The translations under genes and the position numbers were made by a program. The notes beneath the pieces are model-generated. The model ran no database searches. It was not told the origin of the DNA and saw only the letters and a program-made list of their open reading frames with translations. Positions 31,930 to 35,143 of a stretch of DNA of 64,000 nt are shown here, piece by piece (within the stretch, counting starts at the first letter, position 1; each line of letters begins with the position of its first letter). Origin of the DNA: Solimonas fluminis (GTDB lineage Bacteria > Pseudomonadota > Gammaproteobacteria > Nevskiales > Nevskiaceae); assembly GCF_002930645.1 (NCBI RefSeq), contig NZ_PSNW01000002.1, forward strand, positions 1 to 64,000, read 5' to 3'.

Positions 31930-31968
31930 GGAAAAAAATGACCCCGCCGGATCGCTCCGCGCGGGGCC
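31930..31968 (-). terminator. Intrinsic terminator for the beta-helix/cytochrome gene
   Basis: On the minus strand GGCCCCGCGCGGAGCGATCC then GGCGGGGTC and ATTTTTTT: a GC stem followed by seven T, 27 bases beyond the stop of the gene at 31995. Confidence 0.8.
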
Positions 31969-31994: not shown

Positions 31995-34877
31995 CTACGG
32001 CTTGCGCCGGGCCTCGGCCTGGCGCTGGTCGTTGGATTTCAGCGGCAGGGCCCTGGCCTTAGCCTTGGGCGCCACCGCGCCCAGCGCGCCCAGCGGCAGG
32101 CCGGCGCCGGTGCAGGCTTCCTCGTCGGCGGTGTCCTCGGTCGGCAGCACGGTGTCGATCCAGCTCGTGATCAGGTTGGCGGCCTCGCCGTGCACCACGC
32201 TGCGGGCAATCGGCGGCATGCGCACGCCGGGCTCGGCGGAACCGACGCGGAACGGCAGGATCGAGCCCGCGGCGTCCTTGGGGATGATGTCGTAGAGCTT
32301 GCCGCCGGAACCGCGGCCCGCCGCGACCGGCTTCTTGCAGATGCCGTAGTGGATGTCGACGGCGCGATAGGCATCGAGGAACAGGCCGGAATTGGAGGCA
32401 CCGCCGTTGGGCTGGTGGCAGTGCGCGCAGTTCACTTCCAGGTAGGCGCGCACGCGCTGGTGGATGTCGTCGGCGGAATCCGGCAGCGCACCGCTGTCGC
32501 CGGGCACGTTCCAGCGCGGCGCCTTCTCGATGCCGGCCGCATCCACCGGCAAGCCCTCGAGCAGGCCGAGATCCTTGAGGTGCTGCAACTGGTTGACGTC
32601 CTGGCTGCCGTAGCGGGCGGTCTTGTTCATGAAGCGGGGCTTCAGGCCGATGGGCGCGGCGCCCGGCTCCTTGTCGTCGCCGCCGTGGCAGGTGACGCAG
32701 TTGAGCGCGGCGGGGATGCCGTAGCGCGCCGCGGAGCCGGTGTAGCGCCGCCGCTGGCCGCCGGCGGTCTTCACGTCCGGATCGTGGTCGAGGTAGTCGT
32801 ACTCGACGCTGGCTTCGCCGCCCTCGACCTTCAGCTCCGCCACGCGGCGGCCGTTCTCGGTCTTCCAGATGTAGGGCAAGCCCACCCAGTTCACGCCCTG
32901 CGCGGTCTGGCGCTTGATCAGCAGGCGCGTCTCCACCACGTTCTCGCTGATCAGCGCGCCGTCGGCGGCCTCCTTGCGGAACGCGAAGGTCTTGGCGATC
33001 ACCGTGCCCACCGGCATCTCCAGCGTCGCCTGCGGACCGTTGTTGTGGTCCTTGTACCGGGCCTGGGTGCCGGGCGGCAGGTAGATGAAGCGGTACTTGC
33101 TGGCGTAGTCGGAGAACAGCGCGGAGTTGAGGTCGTAGCCGACCCCGCCGCCGCTGGCGTTCTTCGTCGGGTCCTGCGGATCGGCGAACAGGCCGTACTG
33201 GTCCAGGCGCGGGCAATTGACCCGGGCCGCGGCCTCGAAGTTGGGCGTGCTGCCGCCCTTGCCGCAGAGCCGCGCCACCTCGGCCTCGGAGGGCCGCGGG
33301 TCGCTGGCGCCGCTGGGCTTGTACGGCAGCTGCAGCACCGGATCGGGCCGCGTGGGCAGGTCGCAGCGATGCGGAGCGAGGCTGTTGGACGCTGGCTTGA
33401 GCAGGTCCAGCAGCAGCTGCGGCAGCGAGCTGGAGGTCAGCTTGGCGTTAAGGAACGGCGTGGTCAGCAGCGTCGCCGGCTTGCTGTTCTCGTAGGTGTT
33501 GTCCTCGGCAATGCAGAGCCCGTTCTCCGGCTTCTTCAGGTCGCCTTCGGCGTCGAACTTCCAGGCGTTGTACTTGCACTCCGGCTCGGGGTCGCTGCGC
33601 TGGAAGTTGGGGCGGCCGCGCTCGTCGGTGCGCGGCTCCTCGCGCTGCTGGCTGGGATTGGGCTGTGTCAGCGGCACCCCCTGCTCGTCCACCGGCGGCG
33701 CGCAGTCGGCGGGCTTGTCCTCGGCGCCATCCCAGACGATGTGGGCGCCGCGGCCGAGGTTCTTGATGCGCAGCAGCAGCGGCAGCAGCGAGCCCTCGCC
33801 GCGCTCCGGGTCCGGCTGCTGCGGATTGCCGCCGTTGTCGCGGAACGCATTGCCGTGGATCTCGATGCCTTCCGGGAAGAAGTCGTACTTCTTGTCCGGC
33901 TGGTTGGGATCGGCCAGCGCGAAGTTGACGATGGCGATGCCGACCGTGTCGTTGTCGTGGACCTCGTTGCCGTAGATCTCCAGCTGGTCGGAGGCCAGGA
34001 TCAGCATGCCGGTGCCGCGCGGCGTCAGGCCCACGATGTTGCCGATGGGCGCGAAGTTGTCGGTGTTGTTGCCGTACGACTTGTTGTTGCGGACGATGTT
34101 CTTCTCGCCGTACTGCGACAGGCCCGGCAGGTCGAACACCAGGAAGCCGCCGACGTTGTTGGTGGCGACGTTGTCCTCGAACACGGCGCGGTAGGTATTC
34201 TCGAACTCGAAACCGGCGACGTTGTACTCGGCGCGCGTGCGCCGCACGATCACGTCGCTGGTCTGGCCGACATAGATGCCGGCGTCGGAAGCACCGTGGG
34301 CCTCGGAGTCCTCGATCAGCACATGGCGCGCCTCGACCGGGTAGAGGCCGTAGGCGCCATGGCTCTCGCGCGGCGTGTAGCCGGCGTCCTTCTCGGTGCG
34401 GCCCTCGGCGTCGCGCCAGCGGGCGCGCACGTCGCGCAAAGTCACATAGCGGGAGCGGAAGACGCGGATGCCGTTGCCCGGCGTGTCCTCCACCGTGAGG
34501 CCCTGGATCGTGATGCCGTCGGAATGCGAGGCGTTGATGCCCTCGGCGCTGTCGCTGTTCCTGAACGACAGGATGGTCTTGTCCTTGCCGGCACCCTTGA
34601 TCGTGATGCCGCGCTTGCCGTTGAGGATCAGGCCGGTGGGCAGGTCGTAGGTCCCTTCGCAGAACTCGATGACGTCGCCCTCGCGCGCCTCGAAGAACGC
34701 GATCAGCGCATCGCGCCGCACGTTGGCCGGATCGCAGACCTTGTAGGCCTTGGCGCCGTTGCCGCCGCCCGTACCGCCGCCGGGCTTGCCGTCGGAACGG
34801 CTGCCGCAGGCGGCCACGCCCAGGGCCAGTCCGCAGGACAGCATTACCGCAAGGCAGGACCGCAACCGCAGGTTCAT
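31995..34877 (-). CDS. Lipoprotein fusing a parallel beta-helix domain to a diheme cytochrome c-type domain
   Basis: A 960-residue protein. The lipobox GVAACGS lipidates Cys24. Residues 50-345 are right-handed parallel beta-helix repeats (GITIKGAGKDKTILSF, DGITIQGLTVEDTPGNGIRV, VLIEDSEAHGASDAGIYV, RAVFEDNVATNNVGGFLV). A Pro/Asp-rich linker (about 350-540) leads to a module that starts LDQYGLF and continues YDLNSALFSDYASKYRFIYL. It carries two haem c sites, C727-VT-C730-H731 and C817-AH-C820-H821, plus a Met in GVRMPPIA. This matches the pair of families I know as TIGR03805 and TIGR03806 (HNE_0200), usually adjacent genes and sometimes fused; their function is unknown. Expected on the cell surface or in the periplasm, possibly carrying electrons. 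It is a single-gene unit with its own terminator. Confidence 0.85.
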   Translation of the reverse strand: MNLRLRSCLAVMLSCGLALGVAACGSRSDGKPGGGTGGGNGAKAYKVCDPANVRRDALIAFFEAREGDVIEFCEGTYDLPTGLILNGKRGITIKGAGKDKTILSFRNSDSAEGINASHSDGITIQGLTVEDTPGNGIRVFRSRYVTLRDVRARWRDAEGRTEKDAGYTPRESHGAYGLYPVEARHVLIEDSEAHGASDAGIYVGQTSDVIVRRTRAEYNVAGFEFENTYRAVFEDNVATNNVGGFLVFDLPGLSQYGEKNIVRNNKSYGNNTDNFAPIGNIVGLTPRGTGMLILASDQLEIYGNEVHDNDTVGIAIVNFALADPNQPDKKYDFFPEGIEIHGNAFRDNGGNPQQPDPERGEGSLLPLLLRIKNLGRGAHIVWDGAEDKPADCAPPVDEQGVPLTQPNPSQQREEPRTDERGRPNFQRSDPEPECKYNAWKFDAEGDLKKPENGLCIAEDNTYENSKPATLLTTPFLNAKLTSSSLPQLLLDLLKPASNSLAPHRCDLPTRPDPVLQLPYKPSGASDPRPSEAEVARLCGKGGSTPNFEAAARVNCPRLDQYGLFADPQDPTKNASGGGVGYDLNSALFSDYASKYRFIYLPPGTQARYKDHNNGPQATLEMPVGTVIAKTFAFRKEAADGALISENVVETRLLIKRQTAQGVNWVGLPYIWKTENGRRVAELKVEGGEASVEYDYLDHDPDVKTAGGQRRRYTGSAARYGIPAALNCVTCHGGDDKEPGAAPIGLKPRFMNKTARYGSQDVNQLQHLKDLGLLEGLPVDAAGIEKAPRWNVPGDSGALPDSADDIHQRVRAYLEVNCAHCHQPNGGASNSGLFLDAYRAVDIHYGICKKPVAAGRGSGGKLYDIIPKDAAGSILPFRVGSAEPGVRMPPIARSVVHGEAANLITSWIDTVLPTEDTADEEACTGAGLPLGALGAVAPKAKARALPLKSNDQRQAEARRKP

Positions 34878-35143
34878 GGAGATGTCGGGCTCTCTGGCTG
34901 CGGCGGCTCCGTCATCCGGGGGGAGACGGTAACCGCTGGCTGTTCGTGGCTGACTCGGTCGTCAGGTCCGCAGTATTCGCCGGGCCCGCAGGGGCGGCAC
35001 TAGTAAATCCGCTCCCATCGCAAAGCAGCATTTTTGCTTGTTTTATTTAGTTAAAAATAATCAACAATGTTATTAATTAATAAACACCGCCGCTGCCGCG
35101 CGCACTCTGATTGCGGATGATTCGCGCTCGCAGGCGAGCGACG
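34878..35143. promoter_or_regulatory. Upstream region of the beta-helix/cytochrome gene with an AT-rich block
   Basis: No gene is seen here. 35030-35092 is markedly AT-rich (TTGTTTTATTTAGTTAAAAA and TTATTAATTAATAAAC), in contrast to the flanks. It likely contains the promoter for the minus-strand gene starting at 34877, although the AT block lies about 150 bases upstream and could be an activator or nucleoid-protein site. No clear operator was identified. Confidence 0.4.

Follow-up and report, generated by a model that had tools for sequence, protein, structure and literature searches.

What can a bacterium do with a lipoprotein that carries, in a single chain, a parallel beta-helix and a module with two c-type haem attachment sites? 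The question is raised by a gene in a 64,000-nucleotide stretch of the genome of Solimonas fluminis (assembly GCF_002930645.1, contig NZ_PSNW01000002.1, positions 1 to 64,000 of the forward strand; this whole stretch is called the window hereafter), which encodes a protein of 960 residues. The original prediction, made from the letters of the window, had described the frame as a lipobox followed by beta-helix repeats and a diheme cytochrome c-type module, had suggested as an example a polysaccharide- or metal-binding helix wired to electron transfer, had related both halves to the families TIGR03805 and TIGR03806, and had regarded their covalent fusion as something special. The description of the frame, its lipobox and its family ties proved correct, whereas the fusion turned out to be the rule in a whole clade. 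The answer that we put forward here concerns the first of the two haem domains, which we consider likely to be a remote relative of the cytochrome P460/cytochrome c′-beta superfamily.

Family membership was assessed with profile searches. Residues 61-384, in the N-terminal half, score 305.3 bits with TIGR03805 (positions 5-313 of the 314 in the model), for which 141.5 would suffice, and the C-terminal half, from here on the C module, matches TIGR03806 with 303.6 bits (residues 554-909, positions 1-313 of 314), below the cut-off of 313.3. In the genome search the window gene reached 306.6 bits, still under this threshold, which was exceeded in only 1 of 41 genomes (its own and those of 40 relatives) and in 4 of 229 genomes sampled from the class. 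The two CxxCH sites per module that characterize TIGR03806 are present at residues 727-731 and 817-821, just as originally predicted; a decaheme cytochrome of the MtrC/OmcA type would have about ten. Among general profiles, the first half matches Pfam Beta_helix and NosD (37.7 bits for the latter, over its cut-off of 23.6, whereas the NCBIfam NosD model fails with 25.4 against 300) and the region 725-760 matches Cytochrom_C (PF00034; 28.1 bits for the C module and 24.8 for the whole protein, gathering cut-off 21.3). In many genomes TIGR03805 and TIGR03806 members (the latter annotated as 'SO2930 family diheme c-type cytochrome') adjoin as separate genes. Both halves of the window protein match nearly the full models of these pairs, from which it differs in being one chain, in its cysteine-bearing linker and in the sub-cut-off score of its C half. 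The names of both families state no function.

The first line of evidence for the P460 relationship comes from the predicted fold. The C module modelled alone (residues 547-917, 20 sequences) gave a structure with a predicted local distance difference test (pLDDT) of 84.5 and a predicted template modelling score (pTM) of 0.86. When this model was compared with 998 chains using VIA-align, the top seven rows were all cytochromes c′-beta or P460, with Z-scores of 7.0 for 7s5o, 6.8 for 7ead, 6.2 for 9hrk and 6hiu, 5.6 for 8gar, 5.5 for 2je2 and 5.1 for 6e17, the next row being at 4.3. These seven rows align over 125-147 residues of chains that are 135-157 residues long; members of this superfamily are recognised by a five-stranded beta-sheet that ends in a CxxCH. 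It is the uniformity of this list together with the near-full coverage of the P460 chains and the agreement with the sequence comparisons that carries the weight, and not the Z-score of 7 alone.

The second line is given by profile comparisons. A P460 profile was built from 35 P460-family loci, with the partial matches below cut-off of two further loci (L185 and L186) and all matches lacking a stated locus excluded, and its comparison with the haem-1 domain reached a score of 36.5 and a probability of 68%. One reversed and five column-shuffled control profiles scored 10.5-15.3 with probabilities of at most 0.5%, and smaller P460 profiles gave 58-86%. When 45 families from named loci, P460 among these, were compared in this way, P460 ranked first (44.4, 74%), the runner-up scoring 30.6 (21%) and the highest other probability shown being 23.5%. 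Moreover, the Pfam model PF16694 (Cytochrome_P460) weakly matched 6 of 20 modules at E up to 1 (best E 0.0072) and three of ten separate domain pieces (E 0.028-0.074). In the window protein this match, of 14.4 bits, covers residues 591-665 and falls on the sheet and off the CxxCH.

At the level of single residues, the comparison turns on a lysine. A lysine-haem bond is the defining trait of the P460 family; in PDB entry 6amg it is made by Lys106, and 6w6n is the K106L/A131E mutant (PMC11928373). The P460 profile pairs Lys629, which the window protein carries within FPVGTVIAKTF, with the lysine of GTVIVK(E) in 6amg, which by our own count is residue 106 and is Leu in 6w6n. The same column holds Lys in 23 of the 35 P460-family proteins, Phe in nine, Met in two and Val in one, and Phe and Met are the residues found at this position in c′-beta proteins (PMC11928373, Table 2). 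According to PMC6427953, 144 P460s share only five fully conserved residues besides the CxxCH, including Gly73 and Lys78, whose G-x4-K spacing is equal to that of Gly624 and Lys629. The pattern PxG(x4)K...W...CxxCH, which was framed after the alignment had been seen, occurs in 85 of 88 C modules and 20 of 35 P460s, but in none of 21 other CxxCH genes of the loci and in 89 of 4400 shuffles. In an alignment of 88 modules (eight of them linked to the dehydrogenase domain described below), both CxxCH motifs, Lys629, Glu649, Arg651, Trp664 and Met887 are invariant. Around haem 1, no Met or His except His731 is conserved at 80%, as would be expected if the distal site were open. The presence of a P460/c′-beta-like domain whose cross-link position is occupied by a lysine points to catalysis or ligand binding, and for a catalytic role of haem 1 we would give chances that are about even. 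Whether Lys629 is bonded to the haem is, in our judgement, equally balanced; a lysine introduced at this position of a c′-beta protein gave spectra after peroxide treatment that suggest partial cross-linking, and the available evidence favours a bond whose formation depends on peroxide (PMC11928373). Altogether, the likeness to P460 and c′-beta cytochromes comprises the predicted fold, the GxxxxK motif, the Trp, a C-terminal CxxCH and charged residues on the strand that adjoins the pocket. On the other hand, the window module differs from them in its second haem domain, its fusion to a beta-helix (or, in relatives, to a dehydrogenase), its extra residues before the CxxCH, an Arg at the aligned position of the P460 distal carboxylate and a score under the Pfam cut-off.

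As a separate observation, the same genome (G000) contains a stand-alone P460-family gene (C30:224015-224365, locus L182; 88.9 bits) with a Lys at the cross-link position.

A number of results weigh against this relationship. The top Z-score of 7.0 lies in the 7-8 range that VIA-align itself describes as usual for models lacking a clear match, Foldseek found nothing with the C-module model (best E 0.097), and the 14.4 bits of the window protein do not reach the gathering cut-off of 27 bits of PF16694. The best stretch for Cytochrom_C is precisely haem 1 (725-761), where it exceeds its cut-off with 28.1 bits, and the haem-1 piece taken alone matches Cytochrome_CBB3 (E 0.024) and Cytochrom_C (0.068) at least as well as P460 (0.074). 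When the CxxCH is removed, the profile score drops to 26.0 (21%), so that the sequence alone is only suggestive, and the haem-2 domain compared with P460 does as well as this CxxCH-less haem 1 (26.3, 21%). In two further comparisons the aligned stretch was confined to the lysine motif (27% and 14%), and two PDB profile searches with the C module yielded no P460. With regard to individual residues, about 40 are inserted between Trp664 and the CxxCH, and the distal-carboxylate position is seemingly held by Arg651, the invariant Glu649 being two residues off. Lys115 of P460s apparently has its equivalent at position 655, where 40 of the 88 modules have Lys, 28 have His and 16 have Arg; the match to the conserved P460 set is thus incomplete, and no counterpart of Trp24, another of the five conserved residues, was found in the module.

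The missed P460 cut-off, the silence of Foldseek, a Z-score near background and the Cytochrom_C matches around haem 1 are what one would expect if the C module were a plain diheme electron-transfer cytochrome, its P460 likeness a coincidence and the fused protein an accessory electron conduit of the outer membrane. SO_2931 of Shewanella is a probable relative. SO_2930 and SO_2931 are listed in papers as outer-membrane cytochromes, the latter as a diheme one, and two papers connect SO_2931, as a possibility, with the reduction of disulphides or of Fe/Mn oxides (PMC10986466, PMC5955497). The fusion of related modules to dehydrogenases dependent on pyrroloquinoline quinone (PQQ) would also suit an electron acceptor. 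However, a coincidental likeness does not account for seven best structural rows that all come from one superfamily, nor for the near-invariance of the lysine motif, its spacing and the Trp; an invariant set of Lys, Glu and Arg is not expected of an electron carrier, and haem 1 lacks, at the 80% level, a Met or His that could serve as distal ligand. We regard a plain cytochrome as rather unlikely. The original view of a diheme electron-transfer module would hold for one haem only: haem 2, with Met887 conserved as originally noted and PSCyt1 matched weakly over residues 817-889 (19.9 bits, where 22 are required), looks like an ordinary c-type electron carrier, whereas the haem-1 domain looks like P460/c′-beta. 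A search of the openly accessible literature found no paper linking P460 with SO_2930, SO_2931, TIGR03806 or HNE_0200, and as far as this search shows the P460-like nature of the haem-1 domain has not been described.

If the haem-1 domain is indeed P460-like, what would the beta-helix contribute? The AlphaFold2 model of the full protein (30 sequences; pLDDT 84.1, pTM 0.86) contains the expected parallel beta-helix, and its listed structural matches all fall between residues 32 and 511. They include the alginate C5-epimerases AlgE4 and AlgE6 and the 'alginate epimerase/lyase' 8ja4 (Z 30.8 for 8ja4 over 292 residues at 2.6 Å, 29.0 for 2pyg and 28.6 for 5lw3), the RbmB lyase (27.5-28.5) and NosD (7osf, 25.9), so that a helix of the polysaccharide type, as originally proposed, is supported at the level of the predicted fold. 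Over 83 sequences, Tyr176, Tyr179, Asp198, Tyr202, Gln205, Asn219, Glu224, Glu226, Asn227 and Asn241 are conserved on successive coils; Asp249 is on the same face and is invariant in two narrower sequence sets. Judging from the coil register, these residues may form one groove. In the same 83 sequences no His, Lys or Arg is conserved at 85% or more, and for lack of a conserved His we rejected a NosD-like binding of copper by the helix, which, as compared with NosD, shares the fold and adds haem modules.

The acidic, tyrosine-rich face on consecutive coils and the high Z-scores to alginate epimerases and to RbmB could also mean that the helix itself acts enzymatically on polysaccharides, as a lyase, epimerase or hydrolase, and that the haems are a mere electron sink or sensor. 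The catalytic residues of the known enzymes speak against it. AlgG proteins from relatives show a DPH followed by a coil of the HGIIISR type, and at these positions the window protein has YGLYPV and AGIYVGQ, with the repeat register set by hand. In this register the acid/base positions are taken by Tyr179 and Val181, each conserved in 98% of the 83 sequences; an hhalign comparison to four AlgG proteins did not fix the register reliably, and the pairing of DPH with YPV rests on the hand reading. An active alginate-type epimerase was discarded for this reason, since the fold of the AlgE/AlgG enzymes is kept while their catalytic Asp and His are replaced in a protein that adds haem modules. Moreover, no polysaccharide gene was seen among the ten recurrent neighbours annotated, the genome of the window has no AlgG match, and the absence of conserved basic residues points in the same direction. 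In sequence searches, the beta-helix profile matched PDB entries in its first third only (profile positions 31-134 of 419) and phmmer with the central helix gave a single irrelevant match. An active helix of this kind seems improbable to us, and binding of a glycan-like ligand by the helix is a proposal that we hold at neither more nor less than an even chance.

The fusion itself is frequent. TIGR03806 is matched twice in the S. fluminis genome, once in an open frame of 988 amino acids and once in a frame of 1029, the second corresponding to a fused paralogue of 1026 residues about 40% identical to the window protein (C23, locus L032:7687-10767), which groups with Solimonas aquatica in the tree of C modules. 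The family is present in 33 of the 41 genomes, with 49 matches altogether. Besides the window's own, 42 of the other 48 were examined, in 40 loci that include the paralogue, the remaining six being in genomes G040, G016 (three), G028 and G006. A fused beta-helix frame was found in 36 of these 40 loci (35 of 39 counting relatives only), which amount to 37 complete frames plus one truncated by a contig end; in the other four the C module follows a different N-terminal domain. A second collection, of named organisms, kept the best 80 of at least 562 confirmed relatives and is biased towards the window protein. Among these 80 loci, 33 are fused (24 single genes, one tandem of two, seven from Shewanella in which a lone C module comes after the fused gene, and one broken), nine have the beta-helix only and 38 are adjacent split pairs, in agreement with the two-gene arrangement anticipated elsewhere. 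In a quick tree of 94 C modules (midpoint root, support from the Shimodaira-Hasegawa-like approximate likelihood-ratio test only), the four architectures are explained by five changes, and the window protein is placed in a fused clade of 25 rows with support 100, two planctomycete fusions branching apart from it. The C module is spread over Pseudomonadota, Bacteroidota, Planctomycetota and Myxococcota. A one-off fusion can thus be ruled out. A chance join of two genes through an assembly error or a lost stop, functionless as a fusion, would find its precedent in the split pairs but is practically excluded, being refuted by the fused frames of relatives, the well-supported clade and the conserved linker cysteines. 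One metagenomic copy, L099:5172-8286, has beta-helix and fused frames that overlap out of phase and looks frame-shifted.

The partners of the C module offer some further clues. In the four loci without a beta-helix (L044, L064, L072 and L074) it is joined to a domain with the PQQ glucose/sorbosone dehydrogenase (GSDH) fold (130-180 bits with PF07995, whose cut-off is 25). The 229 genomes of the class gave 35 matches, of which 20 loci were examined with GSDH called by a profile made from the first four: 14 have GSDH in frame, three are beta-helix fusions (one frame-shifted and the same copy as L099) and three are split pairs with a beta-helix gene. Thirteen GSDH-linked modules, the four and nine of the 14, form a single clade of the tree with support 100. 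Occurring as it does on a beta-helix or on GSDH, the module is a portable redox unit, and its link to GSDH is equally compatible with electrons coming in from a sugar and with electrons being delivered to haem 1. The GSDH-linked frame of L171, one of the 14 class-wide loci between L155 and L171, is 2232 residues long and extends well past both domains.

Neighbouring genes were called by a longest-frame rule, and ten recurrent ones were annotated through one representative each; no common substrate follows from them. Of the 53 loci that have a fused target, 7 carry a lipoprotein resembling M19 dipeptidases beside the fused gene and in the same orientation, upstream in L046, L083, L084, L085, L089 and L091 and downstream in L043. 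These neighbours, of 796-866 residues, occur in Marinobacter, Alcanivorax and two relatives, and Peptidase_M19 was matched in the one annotated. Among the best 80 named loci, an AraC-type regulator is found in 12, a PQQ alcohol dehydrogenase in eight and a relative of the VolA/Pla-1 phospholipases in six, all of these six from Shewanella. In this genus, seven loci (L114, L117, L119, L124, L133, L134 and L146) share a fused gene, a lone C module and an AraC-type regulator on the opposite strand, and six of the seven include the VolA/Pla-1 relative. Judging from the arrangement of the two adjacent genes, these fused and lone genes probably correspond to SO_2931 and SO_2930, respectively. The Shewanella fused proteins are shorter (881-905 residues) and, in the five aligned, 34-35% identical to the window protein, whose gene appears solitary.

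The features of the locus are collected in Table 1. Conservation at the protein level among fused relatives follows the minus-strand frame. Long plus-strand frames that overlap the gene look like mirror images of its G+C-rich coding sequence; one of them, 32190..35003 (937 residues), lies opposite most of the gene and does not look like a gene itself. The AT-rich block that had been noticed upstream is real, with 60-78% G+C in the windows outside its edges, and no sigma-70-like promoter was found in the scanned region, where shuffles gave a mean of 0.2. As for the proposed terminator, a hairpin with a T tail does follow the gene, but the scanned region holds five such sites against a mean of 2.7 in shuffles, and the count by itself carries little weight. 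The lipobox reads VAAC, and we regard the protein as an outer-membrane lipoprotein that may be displayed at the surface.

Table 1. Features of the fused gene and its flanks (positions in the window; residue numbers refer to the 960-residue protein)
Feature	Position	Strand	Basis
Fused lipoprotein gene (beta-helix / P460-like / cytochrome c)	31995..34877	-	960 aa, ATG start
Signal peptide and lipobox, residues 1-24, lipidated Cys24	34806..34877	-	Cys24 in 38/38 aligned fused sequences
Right-handed parallel beta-helix, TIGR03805, residues 61-384	33726..34697	-	profile match and structure model
Conserved helix face, residues 176-249	34131..34352	-	conservation over 83 sequences
C-cap and linker, residues 385-553, with Cys434, Cys455, Cys505 and Cys538	33219..33725	-	each Cys in 37-38 of 38
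Haem-1 domain, cytochrome P460/c′-beta-like, residues 554-771	32565..33218	-	fold and profile evidence
Lys629 codon, aligned with the P460 cross-link lysine	32991..32993	-	88/88
Glu649-Thr-Arg651, strand beside the P460 distal-carboxylate position	32925..32933	-	Glu649 and Arg651 88/88
Haem-1 attachment site, C727-V-T-C730-H731	32685..32699	-	88/88
Haem-2 domain, helical, cytochrome c-like, residues 780-912	32142..32540	-	model helices and weak PSCyt1
Haem-2 attachment site, C817-A-H-C820-H821	32415..32429	-	88/88
Met887 codon, likely distal ligand of haem 2	32217..32219	-	88/88; ligand role putative
AT-rich block 5′ of the gene	35020..35079		21.7% G+C
Terminator-like hairpin with T tail, 3′ of the gene	31940..31953	-	hairpin, then ATTTTTTT

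How could the three parts work together? We propose that the beta-helix, with the fold of epimerases and lyases and altered AlgG-type residues, would bind or act on a glycan-like ligand near the cell surface, either anchoring the protein on a glycan or bringing the glycan to it. Haem 1, P460-like and provided with Lys629, Glu649 and Arg651, would be a catalytic or ligand-binding site that binds or oxidises a small molecule, and haem 2, with Met887 in its helical c-like domain, would relay electrons between haem 1 and other cytochromes. We somewhat favour this three-piece view as a whole, in which the frame, its fused architecture, its distribution and the conserved residues are observations and both folds are predictions. 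On this view, modules of the TIGR03806 type would be P460-like enzymes with wiring of their own, either joined to or produced next to a beta-helix or a PQQ sugar dehydrogenase. In a more tentative extension, which we rate as possible and somewhat short of an even chance, they would be a third, diheme branch of the P460/c′-beta group: lysine-cross-linked enzymes that contain their own outlet for electrons and are either carried on the outer membrane by a glycan-binding helix or coupled to PQQ sugar dehydrogenases.

The haems of P460 cytochromes, with redox potentials of about -300 to -424 mV, oxidise hydroxylamine and can yield N2O, and as recently as 2025 their fold was called unique to two families (PMC11928373). 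The fusion that first drew attention to this locus is ordinary for its clade, and what is new is the probable P460-like nature of the haem-1 domain. If true, a widespread diheme relative would broaden the P460 superfamily and provide TIGR03805 and TIGR03806 with a chemistry open to testing. The Shewanella outer-membrane cytochrome SO_2931 could likewise be seen in a different light: should the diheme branch exist, it would belong to these enzymes and not to the metal reductases.

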